NCBI GenBank assembly: GCA_903891325.1
Contig: CAITEC010000029.1
Coordinates: 126,539 to 190,538 of the forward strand
Source of the DNA: an uncultured Opitutaceae bacterium
GTDB taxonomy: Bacteria > Verrucomicrobiota > Verrucomicrobiia > Opitutales > Opitutaceae
DNA: 64,000 nucleotides
Direction of reading: 5' to 3'
The translations under genes and the position numbers were made by a program. Below, one piece after another: positions 13,513 to 29,773 of this stretch (the first letter of the stretch is position 1; each line of letters opens with the position of its first letter). The notes beneath the pieces were generated by a model, which saw only the letters and a program-made list of their open reading frames with translations, ran no database searches and was not told the origin of the DNA.

Positions 13513-14940
13513 ATGGCCGTCTCTGCAAACATCTATTCCAAGTACGCTTGGTCGCAGATCAAGCGACAGGCCCCGCCAAAGCGTCCCGCGGGCGAGAGGG
13601 TGGGTGACTATCGGGAGATTTACTCTGAGTACGATGAGGATGTCGTCCGGGAGCAGGCAGCCCGCTGCCTGCAGTGTCCAAACCCCCTGTGCCGCGAAGG
13701 GTGTCCGCTCGCCAATCGCATCCCCGAGTGGATGGCGCTGACCGCCGAGGGGCGCTTCATCGAGGCCGCGGAACTCTCGCGCCAGACCAGCAATTTGCCC
13801 GAGGTGTGCTCGAGGGTCTGCCCCCAGGAAAGGCTGTGCGAGGGCAGTTGCATCCTCAACTACCGGGGCGACCCGGTCTCAATCGGTGGCGTCGAGCGCT
13901 TCATCAACGAGTACGCCTTTGCCCATGGCGCCGTCACGGCGGTGCCGGCGGATCCAAATGGATTCCGTGTGGCCGTTATCGGCTCCGGGCCGGCGGGGAT
14001 CGCCTGCGCGGACCAGCTGGCGGGCCTCGGTTACGCGGTCACCGTCTACGAGTCGCAGATGCTGCCCGGAGGCCTGCTCGTCAACGGCATCCCCTCGTTC
14101 AAACTTGAGAAGCGCATCGTCGAGCGCCGGCTCGATCTCCTGGCCAAGCGCGGCGTTGTCTTCCGCCTGGGCGTGGCCGTCGGTCGCGACATCACGCTGG
14201 CCGAGGTGCGGGGCACCCATGATGCGGTCTTCCTGGGACACGGGGCACAGAAGCCCAAGGACGCGGGGGTTCCCGGCGAAACCCTTGGGGGCGTCGAGAA
14301 GGCACTCCCGTTCCTGATCCAAAAAAACGTGGCTTCCGACCTCCTGTCCATTCCGCCGGTGGACGTGAAAGGCAAGAATGTGGCCGTCCTGGGAGGCGGG
14401 GATACGGCCATGGATTGTCTTCGGACGGCGCTGCGCGCGGGAGCGAAGGCTTCGGTCTGCATCTATCGCAGGGACCTCGCGAACATGCCCGGCAGCCGGA
14501 AGGAATATGCCAATGCCGTTGAGGAGGGTGCCCAGTTCAAGTTTCTCACCAACCCGGTTGCCATCATCGACGATGGATCGGGAAACGTCAGCGCGGTCCA
14601 ATGTGTTCAGATGGAACTGGGTCAGCCCGATGCCTCTGGGCGCAGGAAGCCCCGTGCCGTCAAGGGTTCGGAATTCACGGTGCCGGCCGACATCCTGATC
14701 GTCGCCTACGGATTTGAACCGGTGGACTTTCCGGGCGACAGCGAGTTTGCCGCGATCAAGCTCAATGAGTGGGGCGGCATCGTAGTCGATTCATCCGGCA
14801 TGACCTCCCTTCCGGGCGTATTTGCCGGGGGCGATTCGTCCCGCGGGCCCAGCCTGGTGGTTCATGCCATCCGGGATGCCCGCCTGGCTGCCGGTGGTAT
14901 CCACCAATACCTCGCGGCGCGGAAAACTGCTGTCGCCTGA
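13513..14940 (+). CDS. gltD: Glutamate synthase small (NADPH) subunit-type oxidoreductase
   Basis: RCLQCPNPLCREGCPLANRIPEW...VCSRVCPQERLCEGSCIL cysteine clusters plus two dinucleotide-binding motifs (VIGSGPAGIACADQLAGLG, VLGGGDTAMDCLRTALR). Confidence 0.92.
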   Translation: MAVSANIYSKYAWSQIKRQAPPKRPAGERVGDYREIYSEYDEDVVREQAARCLQCPNPLCREGCPLANRIPEWMALTAEGRFIEAAELSRQTSNLPEVCSRVCPQERLCEGSCILNYRGDPVSIGGVERFINEYAFAHGAVTAVPADPNGFRVAVIGSGPAGIACADQLAGLGYAVTVYESQMLPGGLLVNGIPSFKLEKRIVERRLDLLAKRGVVFRLGVAVGRDITLAEVRGTHDAVFLGHGAQKPKDAGVPGETLGGVEKALPFLIQKNVASDLLSIPPVDVKGKNVAVLGGGDTAMDCLRTALRAGAKASVCIYRRDLANMPGSRKEYANAVEEGAQFKFLTNPVAIIDDGSGNVSAVQCVQMELGQPDASGRRKPRAVKGSEFTVPADILIVAYGFEPVDFPGDSEFAAIKLNEWGGIVVDSSGMTSLPGVFAGGDSSRGPSLVVHAIRDARLAAGGIHQYLAARKTAVA

Positions 14941-15035
14941 ATAGGCCGCTCGCGCCTTTTGGCCAGTCCTTCAGGGTCCGACCGGCGGGGTCACATCTGG
15001 AAATCGGACATCCGTGGGGTCATATCCGATTCCAG

Positions 15036-15110
15036 ACGGGGTCAGGCTCTGAAATCTGTAATTCGAATCGGCGATTCCCCAGAATTACAGATTTCAGAGC
15101 CTGACCCCGT
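15036..15110. repeat. REP-type inverted repeat: perfect 29-bp arms
   Basis: ACGGGGTCAGGCTCTGAAATCTGTAATTC at 15036-15064 and its exact reverse complement at 15082-15110; loop contains nested palindrome GAATCG-G-CGATTC. Confidence 0.95.
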
Positions 15111-15182
15111 GGATGGAGTTGCGAAACGCGGTGGGCCCCAAAAAAGGTGGTTTTACAGATAAATTAGGCTTAACTGGACCCT

Positions 15183-16457
15183 GTGGCAGCGGACTTTACA
15201 GAACTGGTGACCGACATGGCCCGGCGCGCGCGCGCGGCGTCGCTTGTGCTCGCAAACTGCGCGACGGCGGCGAAGAACGACGCCCTGCATCGGCTGGCCG
15301 ACGCGATCGACGCCGCCCACGGGCCCCTGCTCGAGGCGAACCGGCTGGATCTCGACGCCGCGGCGGCCAACGGGCTCGGCGCAGCCCAGGTGGACCGGCT
15401 GGCGCTCAATCCGGCCCGGCTCACCAAGCTGGCCGTGTCTGTCCGGGAGGTCGCCCTTCTGCCCGACCCCGTCGGCGACACCCTGGAGGAGTGGTCCAGG
15501 CCCAATGGGCTGAAGATCCGCAAGGTTCGGGTCCCAATCGGGGTGATCGGCATCATCTACGAGGCCCGCCCCAACGTCACGATCGACTGCGCGATCCTCT
15601 GCCTGAAGTCCGGCAATGCCTGCATCCTTCGCGGCGGCCGGGAGATCTTCAACACGAACACCGCGCTGGCCGCGCTGATCACCGCCGCCCTGGCAGGGGC
15701 CGGGCTGCCCGCAGACTCGGTTCAACTCATCCCGACCACGGACCGGGCCGCGCTCAACACGCTCCTCAAGCTCGACGCCTACATCCACTGCATCATCCCG
15801 CGGGGCGGCGAGAACCTGATCCGGTTTGTCGCGGAGAACAGCACGATCCCGGTCATCAAGCACTACACCGGCGTCTGCTTTGTCTACGTGGACCGGGCGG
15901 CCGATCCGGAGATCGCCGTTAATGTCCTCGTAAATGCCAAGGTCCAGCGCCCCGGGGTGTGCAACGCCGCCGAGCAGTTGCTGGTCCATATTGACGTCGC
16001 CGAGACGCTCCTTCCCTCCCTGGCGAGGGCGCTTGAGGCGAAGGGCGTCCAGCTTCGCTGCGACGCGCGCAGCGCCGTCATCCTGGAACGAAGCGGGATC
16101 CCCCGCATGATCGCCCAGCCGTCCGATTTCACGGCCGAGTTCCTCGACCTCATCCTGGCCGTCCGGGTGGTCGACTCGCTTGAGGAGGCGATCGCGGTCG
16201 TGAACCGCGACGGCTCCGGGCACAGCGACGCCATCATCACCGCCGACCCGGTCGCCGCTCGCCGTTTCCAGGCCGGCGTGGACAGCGCCGTCGTCTTCTG
16301 GAACGCGAGCACCCGCTTCAACGACGGCTTCGAGTTCGGCTTCGGCGCTGAAATCGGGATCAGCACCGACCGGCTTCACGCCCGCGGACCGATGGGCCTG
16401 CCCGAGCTTTGCATCCACAAGTTCCTGGTCGACGGCGACGGGCAGGTGAGGGGGTGA
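15183..16457 (+). CDS. proA: Glutamate-5-semialdehyde dehydrogenase
   Basis: VRVPIGVIGIIYEARPNVTIDCAILCLKSGNACILRGGREIFNTN; NAKVQRPGVCNAAEQLLV; GLPELCIHKFLVDGDGQVRG; GTG start. Confidence 0.95.
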   Translation: MAADFTELVTDMARRARAASLVLANCATAAKNDALHRLADAIDAAHGPLLEANRLDLDAAAANGLGAAQVDRLALNPARLTKLAVSVREVALLPDPVGDTLEEWSRPNGLKIRKVRVPIGVIGIIYEARPNVTIDCAILCLKSGNACILRGGREIFNTNTALAALITAALAGAGLPADSVQLIPTTDRAALNTLLKLDAYIHCIIPRGGENLIRFVAENSTIPVIKHYTGVCFVYVDRAADPEIAVNVLVNAKVQRPGVCNAAEQLLVHIDVAETLLPSLARALEAKGVQLRCDARSAVILERSGIPRMIAQPSDFTAEFLDLILAVRVVDSLEEAIAVVNRDGSGHSDAIITADPVAARRFQAGVDSAVVFWNASTRFNDGFEFGFGAEIGISTDRLHARGPMGLPELCIHKFLVDGDGQVRG

Positions 16458-16513
16458 CGCCCCCAAGAAAGGTTGCATGGAACCGCCGGTCGGCCCAGGT
16501 TACTGACTCCTTC

Positions 16514-17146
16514 ATGAGACCCTTCAACCCCGTGGTTCCGCTCTGTGCAATGGCCGCCGGGCTTTGCGCGTCGGCCGCCTTCGGCCAGTCCGCCCCCGCA
16601 GTCCCGGCCGAGCGGGAGGACCCGACCCCGGCCGCCCTGGCGGCCCACCCCCAGGCCGCGCCGGACGTGGCGCTCACCGCCCCCAAGATAATTTCCTCGG
16701 AAATGGCCGCCCGGCTCAGCGCCGGGCTGCCCGCATTCGCCCCGCCCAAGCCGGGGACCGTCCCGCCGGTCGACGACGGTTCCGACGACGAGAAGCCGAA
16801 GAACGGGATCATCCGGCTTCCCAGCTATATAGTGAACGAGCGCCCGCCGCCGGTCTTCACCAAGCGCGAGATCCTGACCAAGGCCGCGCGCGTGGCCCAG
16901 GTCTACAAGGATCACCCGGGCCTGGACCTCTGGGGCCTGATGCCCCTCTCCTCGCTGAACGCCACCTTTGCCGAGCAGATCTTCGAGGAGGACGAGCGGC
17001 TTCAGAACATCTCGGACATGAGGGACTCCGCCATCACGGTGGGCAGGGGCGGGGACGCGGCCGGCTCCGACAAGCTGAAGGAGGAAACCCGGGGCACGTT
17101 CATGCACGATGTGTGGGGCAGCGGCGACATGGAAGACGGGAAGTAG
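16514..17146 (+). CDS. Secreted hypothetical protein
   Basis: Signal-peptide-like N-terminus (MRPFNPVVPLCAMAAGLCASAAFGQ), low-complexity Pro/Ala stretch. Confidence 0.6.
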   Translation: MRPFNPVVPLCAMAAGLCASAAFGQSAPAVPAEREDPTPAALAAHPQAAPDVALTAPKIISSEMAARLSAGLPAFAPPKPGTVPPVDDGSDDEKPKNGIIRLPSYIVNERPPPVFTKREILTKAARVAQVYKDHPGLDLWGLMPLSSLNATFAEQIFEEDERLQNISDMRDSAITVGRGGDAAGSDKLKEETRGTFMHDVWGSGDMEDGK

Positions 17147-17162
17147 GAAAAACGGGGAAAGG

Positions 17163-18152
17163 GTGCCAACACCTGAATATCTCATTTTGCGGGAAATGCT
17201 CACCCGCGAACCGGAATGGGTCTCGGGCGCGGCGCTGGCCGCCCGGCTCGGCGTAAGCCGGGTGACGGTCTGGCACCACATGGAAAAGCTGCGGGCGCAG
17301 GGCTTTTCCTTCGAGGCGCAGCGCTCGAGGGGCTACCGGATCTCGGGGCGGCCCGAATTGCTCAACGCCTCGCTGGTCGACATCCAGCTGAAGGTCCGGC
17401 CGCGGGGATTTACCTTTGTCCTCCTCGACGAGGTCGACAGCACCAATGACGAGGCGGTCCGCCAGCTTGCCGCGGGGCGCGCCGCCCCCTTTGCCGTCCT
17501 CGCCCGCCGCCAGACGCGCGGCCGCGGCCGCTTCGGCCGCCAGTGGCACAGCGAGGCCAACGGCAACCTCTATGCAAGCTTCGCCTTCCGGCCGGGCGTC
17601 GCGCCGGGCCGAATGCAGACCTTCACCCTGTGGATGGGCGCCAACGTCTGCGAATTGATCGCCAATTTCGCGCGCCTTTCCCCCGGGCTGAAGTGGCCCA
17701 ACGACATCCTCTTCGACGGCCGGAAGGCCGGCGGCATGCTCACCGAGGCGCGCGTGGACGCCGACCAGATCCGCGACCTGGTCTTCGGGCTGGGCCTGAA
17801 CGTGAACAGCCTCCCGGGCGGGTGGCCGGAGGAGCTCGGGCGCAGCGCCGTCTCGCTTCGCGAGGTGGCGGGGGCGCCGCTCGACCTGAATCGCCTGACC
17901 GCCGCGCTTGTCGGCCGGGTGCTTCTGGCGTATTCCCGTTTTGTGGACAACGACCATGTCGAGAATTTCGCCGACCTGTGGAACCGCTACGACGCGCTGA
18001 AGGGGCGCCAGGTGGCCGTGATCGAGGGCGGTCGGCGCCATTCCGGGACGGTCATCGGGGTCGATGACGAGGGCTCGCTGCTGCTCCGCGACGAGCGCGG
18101 CCGGACCCAGCGCTACCGCGCCGGCGAGGTGACGCTGGGAAAAGCCGCCTGA
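17163..18152 (+). CDS. birA: Biotin--[acetyl-CoA-carboxylase] ligase with N-terminal HTH
   Basis: HTH (SGAALAARLGVSRVTVWHHMEKLRAQGFSFEAQRSRGYRI), ligase motif ARRQTRGRGRFGRQWHSEANGNLYASFAFRP, KWPNDIL. Confidence 0.93.
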   Translation: MPTPEYLILREMLTREPEWVSGAALAARLGVSRVTVWHHMEKLRAQGFSFEAQRSRGYRISGRPELLNASLVDIQLKVRPRGFTFVLLDEVDSTNDEAVRQLAAGRAAPFAVLARRQTRGRGRFGRQWHSEANGNLYASFAFRPGVAPGRMQTFTLWMGANVCELIANFARLSPGLKWPNDILFDGRKAGGMLTEARVDADQIRDLVFGLGLNVNSLPGGWPEELGRSAVSLREVAGAPLDLNRLTAALVGRVLLAYSRFVDNDHVENFADLWNRYDALKGRQVAVIEGGRRHSGTVIGVDDEGSLLLRDERGRTQRYRAGEVTLGKAA

Positions 18153-19138
18153 TGCCCGAGCCGACCCCCAGCGCCATCTCCGTTTCGCACCTGGTGAAGA
18201 CGTTCGCCGGCGTCGCCGCCGTCAACGACATCAGCTTTTCGGTCGCCCGCGGGGAAATCATCGGCTTCCTCGGGCCCAACGGCGCGGGCAAGTCGACGAC
18301 GATGCGAATCCTGACCGGCTATCTCCCGGCCACCTCCGGGTCGGTGGCGATCTGCGGCTTCCCGGTGGCGACCCAGCCCGAGGAGATCAAGCGGCGGATC
18401 GGGTACATGCCCGAGAACAACCCCCTGCCCGAGGACATGCGCGTGAGCGAGTACCTCTACTACCGGGGCCGCCTCAAGGAGCTTCCGCGGGCCAAGCTGG
18501 GACCGCGCATCGACGAGGTCCTCGAGGCCTGCGACCTGAAGCGGGTCCGGCACAAGATCATCGGCAGGCTCTCCAAGGGTTATCGCCAGCGCGTCGGGAT
18601 CGCCGAGGCGATCCTGGCCGAGCCGCCGGTCATCATCATGGACGAGCCGACGATCGGCCTGGATCCCCACCAGATCCTGATCGTGCGCGACCTGATCGCG
18701 AGCCTTCGCGGCAGGATGACGGTCATCATCTCCAGCCACATCCTCCCGGAGATCGAGATGACCTGCGACCGGGTCCTGATCATCAACCAGGGGCGGATCG
18801 TCGCCCAGGGAACGCCCGCGGAGCTCCGCGCGGAAATCCTCGGTCGCAACGCCTACACGCTGGAGCTCGCGGGCGACTTTGGCGCGCTTCCCGGGCTGCT
18901 GGCCGGGATCGGTTCCCCGCTGCACGTGGCCTCGCAGGGCGAGCCCGACCCGTCGGGCTTTCGCACCGTCACCCTTGTGACCGACGCGGCCGGGGAGCTG
19001 GGCGAGTCGCTCCTGGGCACCCTCATCGGCGCCGGGTGGAGGGTTCGGGCGATCAGCCGGTCCCATCCGACCCTTGAGGACGTATTCCTGGCCGCCACGC
19101 GGAGGAGTTGGGACGCCGTCGACACCGCGAAGAAATGA
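18152..19138 (+). CDS. ABC transporter ATP-binding protein, GldA-type
   Basis: Walker A GPNGAGKSTTMRIL, signature LSKGYRQRVGIAEAIL, Walker B VIIMDEPTIGLDP. Confidence 0.94.
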   Translation: MPEPTPSAISVSHLVKTFAGVAAVNDISFSVARGEIIGFLGPNGAGKSTTMRILTGYLPATSGSVAICGFPVATQPEEIKRRIGYMPENNPLPEDMRVSEYLYYRGRLKELPRAKLGPRIDEVLEACDLKRVRHKIIGRLSKGYRQRVGIAEAILAEPPVIIMDEPTIGLDPHQILIVRDLIASLRGRMTVIISSHILPEIEMTCDRVLIINQGRIVAQGTPAELRAEILGRNAYTLELAGDFGALPGLLAGIGSPLHVASQGEPDPSGFRTVTLVTDAAGELGESLLGTLIGAGWRVRAISRSHPTLEDVFLAATRRSWDAVDTAKK

Positions 19139-19896
19139 AGCATTTCCTGACCATCCTCAGCCACGAGATCCGCATGCTGCTGGTGAGCCCGGGCACGTAC
19201 GTGGCCGCGGTCGCCTTCCTCGCCGTCATGGGCTTTGAATTCACGCGGATCCTCGACAGCTACAGCCAGGCCCCGCAGGACGCCTCGCCCGCCGGGATGT
19301 TCTTCGCCCAGTTCTGGCTGCCGGTCCTCTTCATGGTGCCGCTGCTCACCATGAAGTGCCTGGCCGACGAGCGGCGGCTCGGCACGATCGAGACCCTGCT
19401 GACGACCCCGGTGACCACCACCGAGGTCGTGCTGGGCAAGTACGGGGCGGCCTACGCCCTTTATGTCGGCCTGTGGGGTTCGACCGCCGGGTTCTTCTTC
19501 ATCCTGCGCAGGTTCTCGAGCGACGCCCGGCTCTTCGACCTGGGCCCGCTCATCGGGGGCTACCTCTTCATCGCCGTCTCCGGGCTGCTCTTTGTCGCCC
19601 TCGGGGTGTTTGCGAGCTCGCTGGCCCGCAACCAGATGGTCGCCGCCATCCTCACCTGCGTCCTGCTCTTCGCGATCCTCTTCGGCGGGCTTTATCTTTC
19701 GACCGCCCCGTGGCTCAAGCCGGAGGCCTTCCAGCCGGTCCGCGAAGCGGTCGCCTACGCGCAGGTGTTCCGCCACTACGAGGACTTCACGCGCGGGGTG
19801 GTGGACATGAGGCAGCTCCTCTTCTACCTGAGCGGCACGGTCCTGGCGCTCATCTTCAGCATCCTGAGCGTCGAGGGGAAGATCCTCCACAGCTAA
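19135..19896 (+). CDS. ABC-2 type permease, GldF-like
   Basis: MKHFLTILSHEIRMLLVSPGTYVAAVAFLAVMG, several TMs, CLADERRLGTIETLLTTPVTTTEVVLGKYGAAY. Confidence 0.88.
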   Translation: MKHFLTILSHEIRMLLVSPGTYVAAVAFLAVMGFEFTRILDSYSQAPQDASPAGMFFAQFWLPVLFMVPLLTMKCLADERRLGTIETLLTTPVTTTEVVLGKYGAAYALYVGLWGSTAGFFFILRRFSSDARLFDLGPLIGGYLFIAVSGLLFVALGVFASSLARNQMVAAILTCVLLFAILFGGLYLSTAPWLKPEAFQPVREAVAYAQVFRHYEDFTRGVVDMRQLLFYLSGTVLALIFSILSVEGKILHS

Positions 19897-19899
19897 GCC

Positions 19900-21399
19900 A
19901 TGGCCGCCCACGACAGCTTCCGCACCACCCGGTGGATCCGCACGGCAAACCTGCTGCTCCAGGCCGCGCTCTTCCTCACGCTGGTGGGTGGGATCAACTA
20001 CATCGCCGGGAACCACGTATGGCGGGACGATCCCTGGCGCTACGACCTGACCCGCTACCGCCGCTATTCGCTCTCGCCGGAGACGCTTGCCTACCTGAAG
20101 GACCTCCAGTCGCCGGTGCGGGTGATCGTGACCGTTGCGGAGAGCTCGGCGGATCCGGAGGTCCGCGGGCTTCTCCGCGAGTACGCCTATGCCGCCGAGG
20201 CGAACCCGGACGGGAACCGGATCTCGGTGGAGTACCTGGACGTCTACCTGAACCGGCGCGAGGCCGACAAGGCGGGCGTGGACCGGGACAACTCGATTGT
20301 CCTCATCTGCGGCGGGCAGCGCCGGACGATACCGATCGGCAGGCTCTTCCTCTACGCCGACGGGGAGCGGACGGCCTTCCAGGGCGAGCAGGCGATCACC
20401 TCCGCGATCCTCAATGTGTCCAGCCCGGAGAGGAAGAAGATCTATTTCCTGGTCGGCCACGGCGAGCTGCGGCCCGACGAGGTCGACCCGGTGAGCGGGC
20501 TGTCGATCGCGAGCAGCGAGCTGGCCCTGCGCAATTACCGGGTCGATACGCTCGACCTGTCGCTGGAGCGCCGGATGCCCCCGGACGCGGCCCTTCTGAT
20601 CGCCGTGTCGCCGAAGAGCCCGTACAAGGCCAAGGAGCAGGAGATGCTCCGGCAGTACCTGGGCGCAGGCGCCGGACGGCTCCTCCTTTTCCTCGCCCCC
20701 CATTACCCGCATCCGGGAATCGGGCTGGAAAACCTTCTCTCGGACTGGGCGGTGACCGTCGACGACGACCTTCTCTGCGAGAGGGGCTCGGCCAACGAGA
20801 CGGAGGACGAGGACCTGATCATCCGCTGCTTTGCGCAGCACCCGGTGACGCAGACCCTCAGCAACGCGAAGGACGGGCTGCGGATCGGCGCAGCCCGGAC
20901 GGTGCGGCCGGACCCGGCCCGCGCCGCCGGCTACGACCTGTCGGCTGTCACCGTCGCGGCCAGCTCGACCTCGGCCTGGGGGGAGGTCAGTTTCGGCTCC
21001 GGCGGCGAGCACTCGTACAGCCCGGCGGTGGACCTGCGCCCGCTTCCGGGGATGGATCCCCCCGGGAGGCTGGGCATCGCGGTGGCCTCCGAGCGGGTCG
21101 CAGCCCGCGACAACCTTCCCTTCAGCGTCCCGGGGGGCCGCCTCCTGGTGGTCGGCACCGGCGACCTGATCTCCAACGCGCGGATCGCCAACGTGGGCGC
21201 GCTCGACTTCCTGCTCGGCGCGGTTTCCTGGGCGGTGAACGGCGACACCCAGCTTGCGATCCCCGTCAGGCCCATTGAGCGGTTCCAGCTTTCCCTCAGC
21301 GCCGGCGAGCTCCACAATCTGCGCTACTCCGTGCTTCTCGCCCTTCCCGGTGCCGCGGCCCTTCTGGGGATCCTCGTCTATTGGACAAGGCGCCGCTGA
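19900..21399 (+). CDS. GldG-like ABC auxiliary protein (ABC_transp_aux type)
   Basis: N-terminal TM, large extracytoplasmic domain (KKIYFLVGHGELRPDE...), C-terminal TM. Confidence 0.8.
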   Translation: MAAHDSFRTTRWIRTANLLLQAALFLTLVGGINYIAGNHVWRDDPWRYDLTRYRRYSLSPETLAYLKDLQSPVRVIVTVAESSADPEVRGLLREYAYAAEANPDGNRISVEYLDVYLNRREADKAGVDRDNSIVLICGGQRRTIPIGRLFLYADGERTAFQGEQAITSAILNVSSPERKKIYFLVGHGELRPDEVDPVSGLSIASSELALRNYRVDTLDLSLERRMPPDAALLIAVSPKSPYKAKEQEMLRQYLGAGAGRLLLFLAPHYPHPGIGLENLLSDWAVTVDDDLLCERGSANETEDEDLIIRCFAQHPVTQTLSNAKDGLRIGAARTVRPDPARAAGYDLSAVTVAASSTSAWGEVSFGSGGEHSYSPAVDLRPLPGMDPPGRLGIAVASERVAARDNLPFSVPGGRLLVVGTGDLISNARIANVGALDFLLGAVSWAVNGDTQLAIPVRPIERFQLSLSAGELHNLRYSVLLALPGAAALLGILVYWTRRR

Positions 21400-21412
21400 A
21401 TCCCCCCAATCC

Positions 21413-23335
21413 ATGCGCACCAAAGTCACCCTTGTCCTGCTCTTCCTGAACGTCGCCCTGTTTTTCTTCATCTTTCACTTCGAGCGGAACTGGAGGACCG
21501 AGAATGTCGCTCTGCAGGTGAGGCACCGGGTGCTCGGCGCCGAGGCGGCCGACATCCGCTCCCTGGACGTCGAAAGCGCGGCTCCCGGCGGGTCCTTCAG
21601 CCTCGTGCGGCGCGGCGCGGCCTGGTTCCTTGTCCGGCCGGTCGCCTGGAGGGCCAACCCGCTGGCGGTGAACCGGATCATCAGCGACCTGCAGTTCCTC
21701 GAAAACCTGACCAGCTTCAGCGTGGGCGACGTCGAGAAAAACGGGCAGTCCCTGGCCGACTACGGCCTGGACCACCCGAGGCTGACGGTGACCTTCACCT
21801 CCGGCGGCGCGGACACGACGGGCGGGGCACCGGTCACCACCACGCTGCGGATCGGCAGCGCGACGAAGTTTGGCCAGCGGCTCTACCTCCTGTCGTCGGG
21901 CGGGGACAGGATCCATGTCGTCGAGCACGGCCTGGCCGAGAGCCTTTCCCTGGCCCCCGACCAGCTTCGCGACGACTCGGTGCTGACGATCCCCGTCTTT
22001 GAGGCCAACTCCCTCAACCTCCAGACCGCGGCGCCGGCCGACCTGCACGTCCGGATCCGCCGCGACGGGACGCGGTGGTCGTTCGAGACCCCCATCCTCG
22101 CCCGCGCCGACAGGACCGCGATCGAGCTTGCGATCGGGGGCCTGGACGCGCTGCGCGTCCGCTCCTTCGTGGGGGCGAATCTCCCGGCGGCGCTTCCGTC
22201 CTCGTCCCCGCTTATGAGCGTGACGATCGAGGGCGACAACCGCCACGAGACGCTGATGGTCGGCCAGCCGGTCGTCCCGGCCCGTCCCGATGAGTATTAC
22301 GCCCAGCTCGAGGGCGGCGACACGCTCTTCACGGTCCGGTTCCCGGCGGAGCTGATGAACCGCCTGCGCAACGCCCAGGAGTCCCTGCGCGACCGCCACG
22401 TGCTTGAGTTCGACCCGCGCTCGGTCACCGGGATCACGCTTTCGGCCCCGAACCAGCCCGAACTCTCCCTGCAGCGCGATGCGCCCGGCGGCAACGGCGC
22501 ACCCGACGAGCCCCACTGGCAGATCGTGCAAAGGGGGGACGGATCCCAGGGTCCGCGCACGCTGGCCGCCGACGCCGGGGCCGTCCAGCGGCTGCTCGAG
22601 CGCCTCGCCCTCCTTGCAGCCGTCCGGTTCCAGAGCGACGCACCCCAGGCGAGCGACCTGGAAAACTGGGGATTCAACCGCCCGGAGCGCGAGGTCGCGC
22701 TCGCCCTTGCCGGGCCCCGAACGGCCGCCGACGGGCAGGGTTCCGCGGGGGGCTCCTCCGTTCTCCTTGAGGTCGGCCTGCCCACCCAGCGCGACAATGT
22801 CGCCTACGCGCGCGTGCCCGGCGCCCCGTCGATCTTCGCTGTGAATCCCGATATCCTGGCCGAGACCCAGGTCGGGGCCGGGGCCTGGCGCGAGCGCCTC
22901 CTTCGCTCGGTGCCCGCCGGGGCCCGGATAACGGGGCTGAAACTCTCCGACCTGCGGGATGGCGCGGTCCTGCTCGACTGGAAGCCCGGGGCGGCGCTTC
23001 CTCCCGACCGGCAGGCCGCCGTGCAGGACGCCCTCGCGGCGATCCGAACCCTCCGCGCGCGGCGATTCCTGCAGGATGGCTTCGCTCCCGCGGCCCGGAT
23101 CGACGGCCAGGAGCATCCCTGGCGGTACCGCCTGGACGCGACCATTTCCCTTCCGGGCGGAGCCACCGTCCAGACCGGGGACAGCAGCCTTTGGATCGCC
23201 GAGCGGACCGGCGGCGCGGAGCAGGCCGCCGGATCCCGCGAGTTCAACGCGGTCTTCCTGGTGGAGCAGCCGCTGCTCGACGCGCTGTGGACGCTGACCT
23301 ACGGCGGGCACGCGCCTCCCCCGCCATCCCCATGA
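21413..23335 (+). CDS. DUF4340-like envelope protein
   Basis: N-terminal TM MRTKVTLVLLFLNVALFFFIFHFE, then VRRGAAWFLVRPVAWRANPLAVNRIISDLQFLENL typical of DUF4340 proteins; position directly after gldG-like gene. Confidence 0.75.
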   Translation: MRTKVTLVLLFLNVALFFFIFHFERNWRTENVALQVRHRVLGAEAADIRSLDVESAAPGGSFSLVRRGAAWFLVRPVAWRANPLAVNRIISDLQFLENLTSFSVGDVEKNGQSLADYGLDHPRLTVTFTSGGADTTGGAPVTTTLRIGSATKFGQRLYLLSSGGDRIHVVEHGLAESLSLAPDQLRDDSVLTIPVFEANSLNLQTAAPADLHVRIRRDGTRWSFETPILARADRTAIELAIGGLDALRVRSFVGANLPAALPSSSPLMSVTIEGDNRHETLMVGQPVVPARPDEYYAQLEGGDTLFTVRFPAELMNRLRNAQESLRDRHVLEFDPRSVTGITLSAPNQPELSLQRDAPGGNGAPDEPHWQIVQRGDGSQGPRTLAADAGAVQRLLERLALLAAVRFQSDAPQASDLENWGFNRPEREVALALAGPRTAADGQGSAGGSSVLLEVGLPTQRDNVAYARVPGAPSIFAVNPDILAETQVGAGAWRERLLRSVPAGARITGLKLSDLRDGAVLLDWKPGAALPPDRQAAVQDALAAIRTLRARRFLQDGFAPAARIDGQEHPWRYRLDATISLPGGATVQTGDSSLWIAERTGGAEQAAGSREFNAVFLVEQPLLDALWTLTYGGHAPPPPSP

Positions 23336-26139
23336 AGTTTCACCGACTGGCGTGGTCCGGCTGCGCCTGGGCGGCTCGCGGGGTGTGGACGCTCGCGGTA
23401 TGGACCCTCTGGCTTGTCCTCTGCGTGCTGATCGCGGTCCAGGCCTACATCGCCTCGACCCGGCGGCTCGACGCGCCGGCCTTTGTCATGCACGCCCTGG
23501 AAAAGCGGCTGGCGGCATCCGGAATGCACGCGACCTTCGGCCGGACCACGTTTGACCCCTCGGGGCGCGTCCTTTTCGAGAACGTCCGGGTCTCGCTGCC
23601 CGGATTCGAGGACCCGATCGTCGATGCGCGCGCCGTCTTCGTCAGGCTCGACCCCTGGGCCCTCGTGCAGGGCCGCTTCGAGTCAGCGGACCTGCGGGCG
23701 ACCGGGGTCACCCTGCGGGTGCCCGCGATGATCTCGTCCACGGGACAGGCCGACGACGTGATTCGCGACCTGGACGCCGGGTTTGCGCCCCGCGAGGGCG
23801 AGTTCGGCATCGAATACCTGAACTTCAAGCTGGGGGGCGTCCGCGTGTCCGCGCACGGGGCGGTGCACCTTGCTCCCGCGGGGAAGACAGCGGCAGGATC
23901 CCTGCCGCTCGCCGACTTCCTCTCGAGGGACTACGCGACCCTCAGCCGCAAGCTCGACGACGCGATCGAGACGCTGTCGGCCCTCGACCAGCCGATGCTC
24001 CGGGTCGAACTGGAGCCGTCCGAGGCCTCCGGGGCGGTCGCGGATGTCTCCCTGTTCGCCGACGGACTGAGGATTTCAAGTCCGATCGAGCTTCATGCCC
24101 GGGCCCTCCAACTGTCGGGCCGGTTTCCCTTCGCGGCCCCGGCGGGCGCGCCGCTGCCCGCCGAGCTGGACTTTGCCGCGTCCGAGCTGGACCTTCCGCG
24201 CCGCGCGGTCGCCCGCGGCGTCCGGGCGAGGGTGTCGCTCGTCCTCCCCCCGGGGCGCCTTCGCGTCGACACGGGATCCTTCCGCGACATCGAGCTGGCG
24301 GCGGCGCGCGTGAGCGCTGACGGGATGGCGGTCGAGGAGCCGCTCGTCTCGCTCTCGGCCGGGCCCCTGCCGGCCCTGCGGGTCCACGCCCGGGGAGTTC
24401 TCGCCGGTTCGCCCGTGTCGGTTCGTTCCGAGGTCGACCTGAAGGCCGGCGCGGCCCGGGTCTCCTTCGAGGGTTCCTTTGCGCCGGGGCTCATGGAGCC
24501 CGTGGGCCGGATCCTCGGAAAGGACCTTCGCAAGTACGCGCAATTGACGCAGCCCGTCGCCCTTTCCGGTGTCGCCCTCTTCGGCCCGAAATGGGCGTTC
24601 CAGCGGGTGACCGGCCGCATCGACACGAGAAAGGCCACGGCCTGGCACGTGCCCCTCGACGAGGTCCGGGGATTGATCGTCTACGACGGAAAGCGGCTGC
24701 TTGCGCCCGAGGCCTTTCTCCGGCTCGGCGACAGCTTTGCCCGGGGCAGCTACGAGCAGGACGTGGCCACCAGGGACTACAGGCTCCTGCTGGCCGGGGC
24801 CCTGAGGCCCCCGGTGATCGGTCCCTGGTTTCCGCCCCAGAGCTGGTGGCACGAGTTCTTCCAGCCCTTCGAGTTCCCGGTGGCGCCCCCCTCGGCCAAG
24901 GTCGACGTCCGCGGGTCCTGGGTCAGCGGCCGCAAGACGCTGGTCTTTGTCGCGGTCGACAGCGCCCATCCGGTGTTCCGCGGGGTTCGGTTTGACCGCG
25001 TCCGCACGCGGCTCTCCATCGGGCCGGGTTTTGACGACGGCCTGGACTTCGCCGCCTCGGCGGGAGGCCGCAGCGCGAGCGGCACGTTTTCCCGCCGCTA
25101 TGATGTCGCGACGGGCGCTTGGCGGGACATGGACTTCGACCTGACCTCCACCTTTGACATCGGCTCGGCCCGGAAGGTCCTGGGCCCGAAGGCGGCGTCG
25201 ATCCTCGATCCGTATGAGTTCGACCAGGCTCCCGTCGCTCGGGTGACCGTCCACCTGCAGGGGCCGGCGGACCGCTCGGGGCCGCCGGACACGGCCCACG
25301 TCGTCGCAAGCACCGGGGCGCCGTTCCGTTTCCACGATTTTCCCTTCACCAGCGTCTCCTTCACCGCCGACATGCGGGGCGACTCAGTTGTGATCGGCAA
25401 CGTGAAGGCGGGTCTTGCCGGGGGCGTTGTCTCCGGCGGTGGCACGATCGCCGGGCGCGGCGACCGGCAGCGGATCGCCTTCAACGGGTCGATCGCCGCC
25501 GCGAGCCTTGGCGGGACGATCGCGGCCGCGGAGGTGTTCTTTGCCAGGCGCTCGAAGACGCCCCGGCCCGACCCGGGCAAGTTTGTGAAGGCGAAGTCCA
25601 GCGTCCGGCTCGATCTCGCCGCCTCCGGCGAGGGACCGGCCGGCAATTTCCTGGATTTCCACGGCGGCGGCAAGGCGCAGATCCAGGGAGCGGAGCTGGG
25701 AGAATTGCGGATGCTCGGGATGCTCTCGCCCCTGCTTCCCTTCGCCTCGCTGCGCTTCACCTCCGCCCGCGCGGATTTCAAGCTCAACGGCCCGGTGCTG
25801 GAATTTCCCGACGTCTCGGTTTCGGGCGCGAACTCGGCGATCCAGGCCCACGGCTCCTACGCGCTCGACCGGCGGCAACTCGCCTTCAAGGCGAAGTTCT
25901 TTCCCTTCCAGAAGAGCAGGTCCTTGCCGCGGGTCCTGATTGGCAGCGTGCTCTCGCCCCTCTCCGAATTCCTGGAGGTCAAGCTGACCGGCAGCATCGA
26001 GAACCCGTCGTGGGAGTTTGAGCGCGGCCCCACGAACATTCTTCAAAAGCTTTCCGCCCCTTCGCCGGCGGCCCCTCAGTCGCCGCCATCTTCGCCGTCC
26101 GCCGCCCCCGCCGTTCGCCCGCCGGCCGCCGGCAAGTGA
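23332..26139 (+). CDS. AsmA-like (bridge-type) envelope protein
   Basis: N-terminal TM, long beta-rich body, C-terminal AsmA-like block (GELRMLGMLSPLLPFASLRFTSARADFKLNGPVLEFPDVSVSGANSAIQAHGSYALDRRQLAFKAKFFPF); ATG overlaps previous stop. Confidence 0.7.
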   Translation: MKFHRLAWSGCAWAARGVWTLAVWTLWLVLCVLIAVQAYIASTRRLDAPAFVMHALEKRLAASGMHATFGRTTFDPSGRVLFENVRVSLPGFEDPIVDARAVFVRLDPWALVQGRFESADLRATGVTLRVPAMISSTGQADDVIRDLDAGFAPREGEFGIEYLNFKLGGVRVSAHGAVHLAPAGKTAAGSLPLADFLSRDYATLSRKLDDAIETLSALDQPMLRVELEPSEASGAVADVSLFADGLRISSPIELHARALQLSGRFPFAAPAGAPLPAELDFAASELDLPRRAVARGVRARVSLVLPPGRLRVDTGSFRDIELAAARVSADGMAVEEPLVSLSAGPLPALRVHARGVLAGSPVSVRSEVDLKAGAARVSFEGSFAPGLMEPVGRILGKDLRKYAQLTQPVALSGVALFGPKWAFQRVTGRIDTRKATAWHVPLDEVRGLIVYDGKRLLAPEAFLRLGDSFARGSYEQDVATRDYRLLLAGALRPPVIGPWFPPQSWWHEFFQPFEFPVAPPSAKVDVRGSWVSGRKTLVFVAVDSAHPVFRGVRFDRVRTRLSIGPGFDDGLDFAASAGGRSASGTFSRRYDVATGAWRDMDFDLTSTFDIGSARKVLGPKAASILDPYEFDQAPVARVTVHLQGPADRSGPPDTAHVVASTGAPFRFHDFPFTSVSFTADMRGDSVVIGNVKAGLAGGVVSGGGTIAGRGDRQRIAFNGSIAAASLGGTIAAAEVFFARRSKTPRPDPGKFVKAKSSVRLDLAASGEGPAGNFLDFHGGGKAQIQGAELGELRMLGMLSPLLPFASLRFTSARADFKLNGPVLEFPDVSVSGANSAIQAHGSYALDRRQLAFKAKFFPFQKSRSLPRVLIGSVLSPLSEFLEVKLTGSIENPSWEFERGPTNILQKLSAPSPAAPQSPPSSPSAAPAVRPPAAGK

Positions 26140-26183
26140 ACGGCTGGGGATAAATCGTATTGCGAATCATGAGGATATGGTAT

Positions 26184-26199
26184 TAGGGTAAATACCCTA
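26184..26199. promoter_or_regulatory. Palindromic operator TAGGGTA-AA-TACCCTA
   Basis: 7-bp perfect arms, ends 1 bp before the kinase ATG at 26201. Confidence 0.6.
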
Positions 26200-26200
26200 G

Positions 26201-29200
26201 ATGATAGCGCTGCCGACATTGCCGCGAAGGACTTGGCTTGAGCGAATCCTTTTCGGCTTCGCGGCGTTGCTGATCCTGGTCGGTGTCGGCGGCCTGGCGG
26301 GCTGGTGGCTCCACATCGACGGCTTGATTCTCCCGTGGGGCGCCTCCGAGCCGATCCAGCCCGACGAGGCGCTTTCCTTCGCGGTCCTCGGCGCGGTCCT
26401 CGTCTGCCTGGAACTGGGATGGCGGTCCGCGGCGTGGCTGTGCGCGCTGCCGATCGGCTTCTCGGCGCTCACGCTGGTCGAGGCGGCGATCGGCCGGGAC
26501 GTGCACATCAGCGACGTCTTCCTGATCGACCACCTCTATGCGGCGGCGGCGCACGCGGGACGAGGGGCGGCAATCGGCGGCGCCTGCATCGGGCTGGGGG
26601 CCCTGGTCGTCGCCTGGCCGCCGGCCTGGAGGTTTCCGCGCACGCGCACGCTCTGCGGAGCGGTGGCCGGCTCGCTCCTCTCCTCGGTCGGCTTCTCCAC
26701 CCTGGTGGGCTACGCCGGCGACATGCGGCGGGTCTACAGCTGGAGCGGCGAGATCGCGATGTCCCCCGGCACGGCGATCGCGCTTTTCCTGCTCGGGTCG
26801 AGCCTCCTGCTGCTGGTCTGGCGGGACAGCGTCCGCGAGCGGGACGAATTCCCGTCGTGGACGCCGATGCCCGCCGTCATCGGCTGCCTGACGCTGACCC
26901 TGATCGTCTGGACGGGCCTGCGCGAGCGCGAGCGGGTCGGGCTCGAGAACCAGACCAACGAGGCGATGAAGGGGCTCGCGATGACGATCCATGCGAAGAT
27001 CGAGGAGCAAAACGACGCCCTTGAGCGCCTTGCCCGGAGCTGGGCGGAGGCCCCGGAATACGACACGATCATTTGGGAGGCCGATGCGCACACGCAGCTG
27101 GACCGCTCGAACGCGGCCGGCGCCTACGGCTGCCAGTCGATCGCCTACCTGGACTCCTCGGGCCAGACCCGGTGGATTTACCCGAGGGTGGGCAACGAGT
27201 GGGCCATTGATTTCAACCACCTCTCCGTGGCCGCCCGGTCCGAGGCGATCGCCGATGCGCGCGCGAAGGGGCATCCGTCCGTGTCGGCGACGACGACGAT
27301 CAGCGGCGGCTCGCAGGCCGGGTTTGCGATCTACGCCCCGGTGACGCGGGAGGGGAGGCTGGCCGGCTACGTTGCCGCCGAGTACGGCTACCTGCGATTC
27401 TTCGGCAAGGTGGTGGACTCGCTCGGCTACACCCGGGCCTCGGACGTGCTCGGGCCCGCCTACCGCGTGACGGTCACCCTGGGCAAGGACGTCTTCTATG
27501 ACGGGGGGGCGCCGGTTACCGGCGCGAATTCCGATTACACGGCCAACGGAAACTACCCGATTTTTGACCGGCGCGTGCAGCTTTCCGTGACCCCCTCGGA
27601 GGAGCAGCTGGCCCGCGGCCGCGGGTCGCTGGCGGAGTTCGTGCTGCTGGGGGGCATCGGCATCTCCGCCCTGCTCGGCCTGACCGTCTACCTCGCCTGC
27701 CGCGCCCGCGCAGGCCAGCTCGCGAGCGAGCTGTCCAACCGCAAGCTCCAGGTGGAGAATGAGGAGCGCCGCCGGATCGAGACCCGGCTGAAGATATCCG
27801 ACGAGCGCCTGCGCCTCGCCCTGGACTCCACGGAGATCGGCATCTTCGAGTGGAACGTCGCGACCGGCCACGTCTACTACAGCAGCGGGCTGTGGGCGAT
27901 GCTCGGGTACGAGCACGACAGGATGCCCGGAACGCTCGAGGCGTGGCAGTCGCTCATCCACCCCGACGACCTGGCGGTCTACCGTCCCCGCGTCGAGTCC
28001 CAGTTGAACGGCTCGGCGACCTACATCGAGCTGGAGTACCGGATCCGCACCCGGACCGGCGACTGGCGCTGGATCTACGGGCGCTCCAAGTCCATATCCA
28101 CGGACACCGAGGGCAGGCCGGCGCGGATCATCGGGACGGTGCAGGACGTGACCGCGCGGGTTGAGACCGAGCACCACCTGCGCAGGGCCAAGGCGGAGGC
28201 CGACGCGGCGTCGCGGGCCAAGAGCGACTTCCTCGCGTCGATGTCGCACGAGATCCGCACGCCGATGAACGGCATCATCGGCATGACGAGCCTCATCACG
28301 GAGACGCCGCTCACCGTCGAGCAGCGCGACTACGTCAACACGATCCGGACCTCGAGCGAGGCGCTGCTCACGATCATCAACGACATCCTGGACTTCTCCA
28401 AGATCGAGTCCGGGAAGATGGAGATTGAGAACACGCCCTTCGGCCTCGCGCTCTGCCTGGAGGAGACCCTCGACCTCTTCGCGGTGAAGGCCGCCGAGAA
28501 GAACATCGAGATCGGCTACAGCATCGCGCGGGACGTGCCGCCGTGGATCTCCGGGGACGTGACGCGGCTCTGGCAGGTGATCACCAACCTGGTGAACAAC
28601 GCGGTGAAGTTCACCTCCTTTGGCAGCGTCTCCGTCGAGGTGAAGCGCGGCGCCCCGGCGGAGGGAAACCGCTTCCTCCTGGAGTTTGCGATCCGGGACA
28701 CGGGGATCGGCATCCCCTCGGATCGGTTGAACAGGCTCTTCAAGGCGTTCAGCCAGGTCGACTCGTCGACGACCCGAAAGTACGGCGGCACGGGCCTGGG
28801 GCTGGCGATTTCGCAGCGCCTCAGCCACCTGATGGGGGGAAGCATCCGCGTCGAGAGCGAGGTCGGCAAGGGCTCGGCCTTCATCTTCACGATCCTCACC
28901 GAGCCGGCGCCCCTTCCGATCGACATCGACTACCTTCCCCCGCTGCCCGCGCCGCTGCGCGGGGGCACGGTCCTTTGCATCGAGGACAACCCCGTGACCC
29001 AGGCCCGGCTGCGCGGGCTGCTCGAAAAGTGGGGCGTCACCTGCGTGATCGTCCCGGACCTTCCGGCGGCCGAGAAGCTGGTTGCGGCCAACGGCGTGGT
29101 CCCCGTGATGGCGGTCGTCGACCACGGCGCGCTCGAGTACCAGGCCGTCCCGGAGCGATTCGCGGCGCTGCAGTGCCCCCGGCTCGTCATGGTTCCCTTT

Positions 29201-29773
29201 GGGCGGACGGTGGCCAGCTCGGCCGCGGACGGGCGGCCCTTCGCCAGCGTGACCAAGCCCCTCAAGGACTCCTCGTTCATGCACGCGGTCGAGACCCTGT
29301 TCTCTACGGTCTCGACCGAGGAGGCGGCCGTGGTGTCCTCGGAGTCGCACATCCTTGCCCAGGACTTCCCCCTGAGCGTCCTGCTCGCCGAGGACAACCC
29401 GGTGAACCAGAAGGTCGCCCTCGGGTACCTCGAGCGGATGGGCTACCGGGCGGGCCTGGTCGTCAACGGCATCGAGGCGGTCGCCGCCGTCGAGAGCCGC
29501 CCCTACGACCTGGTCCTGATGGACCTGCAGATGCCCGAGATGGACGGACTCGAGGCGAGCCGCCAGATCCGGCGGCGCGTGCCGGCGGAGCGCCAGCCGA
29601 AGATCATCGCGCTCACCGCCAACGCCATGGAGGGGGACCGGGAGCTTTGCGAGGCGGCCGGCATGGACGACTACATTTCAAAGCCGGTCAAGCTGAACGA
29701 GATGGCGGCGGCCATCCGTCGGCAGTTCGCGAAGACGGCCAAGCCGGCCAAGAGGGAGCAGATCGCCGGCTAG
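26201..29773 (+). CDS. Hybrid sensor histidine kinase (TM domain, CHASE-like, PAS, HisKA, HATPase, two receiver domains)
   Basis: SHEIRTPMNGIIGMTSLI (H box), NAVKFTSFG, GGTGLGLAISQRLSHLMGG, C-terminal VLLAEDNPVNQKVALGYLERMGY...DLVLMDLQMPEMDGLE. Confidence 0.95.
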   Translation: MIALPTLPRRTWLERILFGFAALLILVGVGGLAGWWLHIDGLILPWGASEPIQPDEALSFAVLGAVLVCLELGWRSAAWLCALPIGFSALTLVEAAIGRDVHISDVFLIDHLYAAAAHAGRGAAIGGACIGLGALVVAWPPAWRFPRTRTLCGAVAGSLLSSVGFSTLVGYAGDMRRVYSWSGEIAMSPGTAIALFLLGSSLLLLVWRDSVRERDEFPSWTPMPAVIGCLTLTLIVWTGLRERERVGLENQTNEAMKGLAMTIHAKIEEQNDALERLARSWAEAPEYDTIIWEADAHTQLDRSNAAGAYGCQSIAYLDSSGQTRWIYPRVGNEWAIDFNHLSVAARSEAIADARAKGHPSVSATTTISGGSQAGFAIYAPVTREGRLAGYVAAEYGYLRFFGKVVDSLGYTRASDVLGPAYRVTVTLGKDVFYDGGAPVTGANSDYTANGNYPIFDRRVQLSVTPSEEQLARGRGSLAEFVLLGGIGISALLGLTVYLACRARAGQLASELSNRKLQVENEERRRIETRLKISDERLRLALDSTEIGIFEWNVATGHVYYSSGLWAMLGYEHDRMPGTLEAWQSLIHPDDLAVYRPRVESQLNGSATYIELEYRIRTRTGDWRWIYGRSKSISTDTEGRPARIIGTVQDVTARVETEHHLRRAKAEADAASRAKSDFLASMSHEIRTPMNGIIGMTSLITETPLTVEQRDYVNTIRTSSEALLTIINDILDFSKIESGKMEIENTPFGLALCLEETLDLFAVKAAEKNIEIGYSIARDVPPWISGDVTRLWQVITNLVNNAVKFTSFGSVSVEVKRGAPAEGNRFLLEFAIRDTGIGIPSDRLNRLFKAFSQVDSSTTRKYGGTGLGLAISQRLSHLMGGSIRVESEVGKGSAFIFTILTEPAPLPIDIDYLPPLPAPLRGGTVLCIEDNPVTQARLRGLLEKWGVTCVIVPDLPAAEKLVAANGVVPVMAVVDHGALEYQAVPERFAALQCPRLVMVPFGRTVASSAADGRPFASVTKPLKDSSFMHAVETLFSTVSTEEAAVVSSESHILAQDFPLSVLLAEDNPVNQKVALGYLERMGYRAGLVVNGIEAVAAVESRPYDLVLMDLQMPEMDGLEASRQIRRRVPAERQPKIIALTANAMEGDRELCEAAGMDDYISKPVKLNEMAAAIRRQFAKTAKPAKREQIAG

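Follow-up and report, generated by a model that had tools for sequence, protein, structure and literature searches.

The route by which phospholipids reach the outer membrane, and whether AsmA-like bridges are powered at all, are debated questions. AsmA-like proteins have been credited with anterograde phospholipid traffic (PMC10665443); the Escherichia coli proteins TamB, YhdP and YdbH, which have no known ATP-driven partner, have been modelled as diffusion conduits, and the transport of lipopolysaccharide (LPS) as ATP-powered (PMC8593681). In the latter system, LptB2FGC-A-DE, an ATP-binding cassette (ABC) exporter feeds a periplasm-spanning beta bridge. The GldA-GldF-GldG transporter of Flavobacteriia consists of an ATPase, an ABC-2 permease and a GldG subunit; since a gldG mutation in Flavobacterium psychrophilum disturbs protein secretion as well as gliding (PMC5682007), Gld-type transporters in general may be envelope machines. 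Here we analyse a stretch of 64,000 nucleotides (nt; the window) from the genome of an uncultured Opitutaceae bacterium of the phylum Verrucomicrobiota, in which genes for a GldAFG-like ABC transporter and a DUF4340 protein are followed by a gene for an AsmA-like protein. Each component is a member of, or similar to, an established family, and the combination is apparently undescribed. A literature search that covered few subscription journals returned no paper in which a GldAFG/DUF4340 transporter has an AsmA-like protein as its regular partner and none in which DUF4340, GldG and an ABC transporter appear together; GldG and AsmA were found together only in two flavobacterial papers, which mention each of them once.

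The host genome (3.29 Mb, 94.7% complete, 140 contigs) has its nearest named relatives among the Opitutaceae/Opitutae. Six open reading frames (ORFs) lie on the + strand between positions 17163 and 26139 of the window. Their coordinates and tight junctions agree with the first-pass annotation, which had read them as a single six-gene operon, and family scans support its labels. That operon stands for five core genes; the sixth, birA, is linked to the others only in Opitutaceae, and a six-gene unit was rejected on this ground. The conserved unit consists of the genes for an ABC ATPase (18152..19138), an ABC-2 permease (19135..19896), a GldG-like periplasmic subunit (19900..21399), a triple-DUF4340 protein (21413..23335) and an AsmA-like protein (23332..26139). 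The ATPase and permease genes overlap by 4 bp (ATGA), as do the DUF4340 and AsmA-like genes, and gaps of 3 bp and 13 bp separate the GldG-like gene from the permease and DUF4340 genes, respectively. In relatives, the median spacing is 4.5 nt between ATPase and permease (n=96), 6 nt between permease and GldG (n=94), 26.5 nt between GldG and DUF4340 (n=92) and 28 nt between DUF4340 and AsmA (n=89).

Conservation was assessed in two samples of Verrucomicrobiota, 57 genomes of the order and 145 genomes of the phylum. Within the order, the AsmA-like and DUF4340 proteins were each found in 55/57 genomes and PF09822 in 57/57. In 46 of the 55 genomes, from 14 families of the order, less than 8 kb separates the AsmA-like gene from the unit's own GldG gene and the two share a strand, whereas chance would place an unrelated single-copy gene inside 8 kb in far fewer than 1% of genomes of 3 Mb. 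Among the nine exceptions, seven have the two genes on different contigs and two (G014 and G017, both Opitutaceae) have them apart within one contig; another genome, G054, carries the full unit, though the single-protein search missed it. The order proA - unassigned gene - birA - ATPase - permease - GldG - DUF4340 - AsmA recurs among 75 Opitutaceae-type loci, with gaps chiefly at contig ends; one locus (L031) lacks birA despite having room for it.

Across the phylum, profile matches were obtained for AsmA in 84/145 genomes and for DUF4340 in 110/145, and outside the class the two matches lie within about 6 kb of each other in at least 25 genomes. We read 19 of these out-of-class loci, a biased sample in that they were picked for pairing on one contig; in 18 of them, from 10 families, ATPase, permease, GldG, DUF4340 and AsmA follow one another in this order on one strand, and in the nineteenth the permease match is missing and the AsmA match is weak. 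Over most of the order, and in further classes of the phylum, the AsmA-like gene has thus kept its place next to the ABC genes, so that the proposal of the first-pass annotation, which lack of such conservation would have refuted, is not refuted on this point. The main clades of the AsmA tree agree with those of each partner tree, and distance correlations between AsmA and its partners are 0.82-0.87 (19 loci outside Opitutaceae). These trees indicate vertical co-inheritance and are no evidence of physical contact; because they are congruent, the five-gene unit looks ancestral.

The GldA/DrrA-like ATPase (328 aa; PF00005, 103 bits) has intact motifs, namely Walker A (GPNGAGKST), signature (LSKGYRQRV), Walker B (VIIMDEPTIGLDP) and H-loop (ISSH), and its closest solved structures are those of the phospholipid transporters ABCA4, ABCA3, ABCA7 and ABCA1. 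The GldF-like permease (253 aa; PF12679, 46 bits) has about six hydrophobic segments in hydropathy plots and matches the ABC2_membrane/GldF models; in contrast to the Lpt exporter, the unit gave no LptF_LptG match in Pfam and NCBIfam scans. The GldG-like protein (499 aa) scores above cut-off with both PF09822 (55.7 bits) and PF23357 (30.9 bits) and carries one hydrophobic segment near each end (residues 18-36 and 474-496); a search by sequence against the PDB returned nothing useful. The DUF4340 protein (640 aa) matches PF14238 in three stretches (136 bits) and has a single N-terminal hydrophobic segment, a predicted membrane anchor. Its AlphaFold model is of high confidence (pLDDT 93.2), a fold search with this model retrieved no solved structure at E<1e-3, and comparison of the DUF4340 and AsmA profiles with PDB sequences yielded nothing useful. 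With an intact PF00005 ATPase, an ABC-2 permease, and PF09822 and PF14238 all above their cut-offs, the first four genes have the composition of an ABC-2 exporter with ABC_transp_aux/DUF4340 subunits. In Verrucomicrobium spinosum, the DUF4340 domain of one DUF4340 protein has been reported to be essential (PMC12283558).

The AsmA-like protein (935 aa) has no Pfam match above cut-off: YhdP scored 12.4 bits (cut-off 46), GspN 24.6 bits (cut-off 50), and none of the curated scores of the AsmA-superfamily models PF13116, PF05170, PF04357 and PF05359 was reached. Among 30 homologues, however, 15 match PF13116 (YhdP; best E 3.6e-9) and 2 match AsmA. In an hhalign comparison, residues 632-859 align with residues 965-1202 of E. 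coli YhdP at a modest E=2.7e-4 and a probability of 41%; the profile comparison with TamB and YdbH was weaker (E about 0.03), with the TamA control at 0.45. The AlphaFold model, built with 30 sequences (pLDDT 83.4, pTM 0.60), comprises an anchor helix (residues 2-43), a second helix (50-62) and then mostly strands up to residue 898, including about 42 long beta-strands of 7 or more residues each; the only hydrophobic segment in the hydropathy plot is N-terminal. This is the layout of the AsmA superfamily (N-terminal anchor, chorein-N-like helix and long beta region), as shared by E. coli YhdP, TamB and YdbH. The 23332-26139 product being modelled as a membrane anchor and long beta structure of the AsmA/YhdP type, the first-pass annotation, for which absence of a bridge-like beta-groove would have been a refutation, is not refuted here either. 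The difference in hydrophobicity between strand faces is 2.39 Kyte-Doolittle units, as compared with 1.31 for shuffled sequences (shuffle maximum 1.83), and 26 of the 42 strands are clearly two-faced, which is expected for a groove, yet globular and other beta proteins alternate too. The best foldseek matches in the PDB, all with low TM-scores, are chains of LptD, the top match, and ApoB100, both lipid-handling beta proteins; TamB chains were absent among the fold matches listed, although solved TamB chains were found by sequence. As judged from its homologues and model, the protein is a divergent member of the AsmA superfamily that is nearest to YhdP; since it misses the curated cut-offs, we file it as related to this subfamily and not as a named member of it.

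With the genes, their families, predicted membrane anchors and folds, linkage and vertical co-inheritance established by sequence comparison and modelling, we tentatively favour, as a real if not quite even prospect, a five-gene envelope machine in which an ABC complex with GldG-like and DUF4340 subunits passes an amphipathic lipid to an AsmA-type bridge. At its core would be an ABCA/GldAF-like exporter made of the ATPase, in the cytoplasm, and the ABC-2 permease, with the GldG-like and DUF4340 proteins as its periplasmic, membrane-anchored subunits. This complex would pick up or laterally push the lipid, most likely a glycerophospholipid, from the inner membrane and load it onto the AsmA-like protein or gate its entry; the long beta-groove proposed for the latter would span the periplasm and carry the lipid to the outer membrane, much as LptB2FG supplies the bridge of the Lpt system. 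Such a scheme supposes physical contact between the proteins, a lipid substrate, this direction of transport, and a role for ATP in driving or gating it. The lipid reading is suggested by the type of the bridge, by the ABCA1/3/4/7 relatives of the ATPase, by the failure to detect TamB and by the linkage to DegP. TamB (PF04357) was undetected in the 13/13 genomes of the genus (the host genome and 12 others), all of which have the operon AsmA gene (13/13), and was found in 17/57 genomes of the order, including other Opitutaceae; loss of the translocation and assembly module (TAM) in the genus is possible. A DegP/HtrA-type envelope protease is encoded directly 5' of the ATPase gene in 5 of 10 out-of-class loci tested (L106, L109, L111, L112 and L122; families f34, f39 and f42).

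If the unit is an ATP-powered exporter, it would demonstrate that transport along AsmA-like bridges can be active. The conserved AsmA-ABC operon offers candidate inner-membrane partners and a candidate energy source for such bridges, and a proposed role for the widespread and poorly characterised DUF4340 and GldG-type subunits, including the essential DUF4340 protein of V. spinosum (PMC12283558). A broader claim, that a GldAFG-type ABC transporter, DUF4340 and an AsmA-type bridge make up an ATP-powered, periplasm-spanning lipid exporter and that phospholipids reach the outer membrane chiefly through it in much of the phylum, appears doubtful to us.

Several observations weigh against the lipid-passing machine. 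The tie of these proteins to lipid is indirect; the ABCA likeness of the ATPase is common to many DrrA/NatA-type ATPases, the low-TM foldseek matches may merely reflect long beta-sheets, and the V. spinosum protein VSP_RS39600 could instead be a paralogous DUF4340 protein. Congruent trees arise for any vertically inherited genes through shared species history. In loci L129-L134, which come from the same class but not from the order, genes one to four stand together and AsmA lies elsewhere, which, together with G014 and G017, makes the ABC-AsmA linkage not obligatory. The host genome (G000) encodes another large AsmA/YhdP-like protein in a 1062 aa open frame (G000:C62:13009-16194; L151 4010-7195, - strand), and transport by AsmA-like proteins of E. 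coli is modelled as diffusion (PMC8593681). This last point, like the fact that the linkage can break while the ABC and AsmA parts both persist, fits an arrangement in which lipid diffuses passively along the AsmA-like bridge and the ABC complex gates, anchors or regulates it as an FtsEX-like mechanotransmitter. We consider this rather unlikely; a passive bridge alone leaves unexplained why it is co-inherited with a complete transporter that includes two large subunits in the periplasm. The same broken linkages would be expected if the AsmA-like gene had no function in common with the others and stood beside them by chance or for co-regulation only, which is very improbable given that its place and orientation are constant over many families and several classes while the flanks change.

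Other explanations concern the cargo. The unit might serve the assembly or export of outer-membrane proteins or lipoproteins in a TAM-like or Lol-like manner, with the AsmA-like protein as a scaffold and not a lipid conduit. The reported roles of TamB in outer-membrane protein assembly, the DegP gene upstream in some lineages and the secretion defect of the F. psychrophilum gldG mutant (PMC5682007) all point this way, whereas the unit contains no BamA/TamA-like gene and its AsmA-like protein is closest to YhdP, not TamB, so that we regard this explanation as unlikely. Glycolipids and polysaccharides are common cargoes of ABC-2 exporters. Phospholipid being a putative substrate of the unit, another envelope amphiphile or polymer, such as a lipoglycan or a special lipid, might be exported in place of bulk phospholipid; this seems distinctly unlikely, as no genes for such biosynthesis lie beside the unit, whose flanks are mostly housekeeping genes that differ between lineages. 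A gliding-motility transporter would agree with GldA, GldF and GldG being the best NCBIfam matches of the operon, but all three proteins fall far under the equivalog cut-offs (ATPase, 278 bits against 402.6 for TIGR03522; permease, 115.9 against 288.5 for TIGR03518; GldG-like protein, 40.4 against 389.85 for TIGR03521). The operon also differs from Flavobacteriia GldAFG in its extra DUF4340 and AsmA-like genes, the latter encoding no Gld protein, and SprA was found in 0/54 genomes by a search run without a positive control. A gliding function was rejected on the missed cut-offs and is hardly credible. The interpretation given in the first-pass annotation is thus supported in part: it had preferred lipid or envelope-polymer export to motility, and lipid is the better reading in view of these cut-offs and the ABCA-like ATPase; its idea that the complex may energise such export is conjectural.

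Elsewhere in the genomes, LptFG was found in 19/19 genomes, including that of the host, outside the unit; LPS export therefore does not need the five-gene system, and a replacement for Lpt was rejected. The host genome has two MlaD-domain genes, one of them beside an ABC ATPase ORF. That the operon protein is the sole AsmA-type protein of the genome was likewise rejected, as the G000:C62 ORF exists and is unmatched by the operon AsmA model; few large candidates of AsmA type were found, and among them the operon protein is conserved best. A second locus with GldA/F/G-like and DUF4340 genes (G000:C139, L136) is kept in the order. It shares the ATPase, permease, GldG and DUF4340 genes with the unit and differs in its larger GldG frame (about 660 aa), its single DUF4340 match and the absence of an AsmA-like gene on its 10.6-kb contig.

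The birA gene (biotin ligase/repressor; 17163-18152, + strand, GTG start; TIGR00121, 155 bits with a cut-off of 83; PF03099) overlaps the ATPase gene by 1 bp (TGATG). It adjoins the ATPase gene in Opitutaceae loci and was upstream of it in 0/19 out-of-class loci. The co-directional run begins further upstream, with proA at 15183 and then an ORF at 16409..17146 (+ strand), whose product has no Pfam or NCBIfam match and recurs between proA and birA in Opitutaceae; it is a possible member of the operon and not part of the core. No promoter-like site was found in 14900-26400, and terminator-like sites in this interval were no more numerous than in shuffled sequences. Outside the class, the genes downstream of the unit vary (helicases, PrmA, GDC-P, PdxJ, exonuclease), as do those upstream, DegP/HtrA excepted. 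In the window, the unit is followed by a gene for a hybrid histidine kinase/response regulator (26201-29773, + strand); a strong homologue of it is found downstream of AsmA in about two-thirds of Opitutaceae loci and in none of the loci read in other classes.

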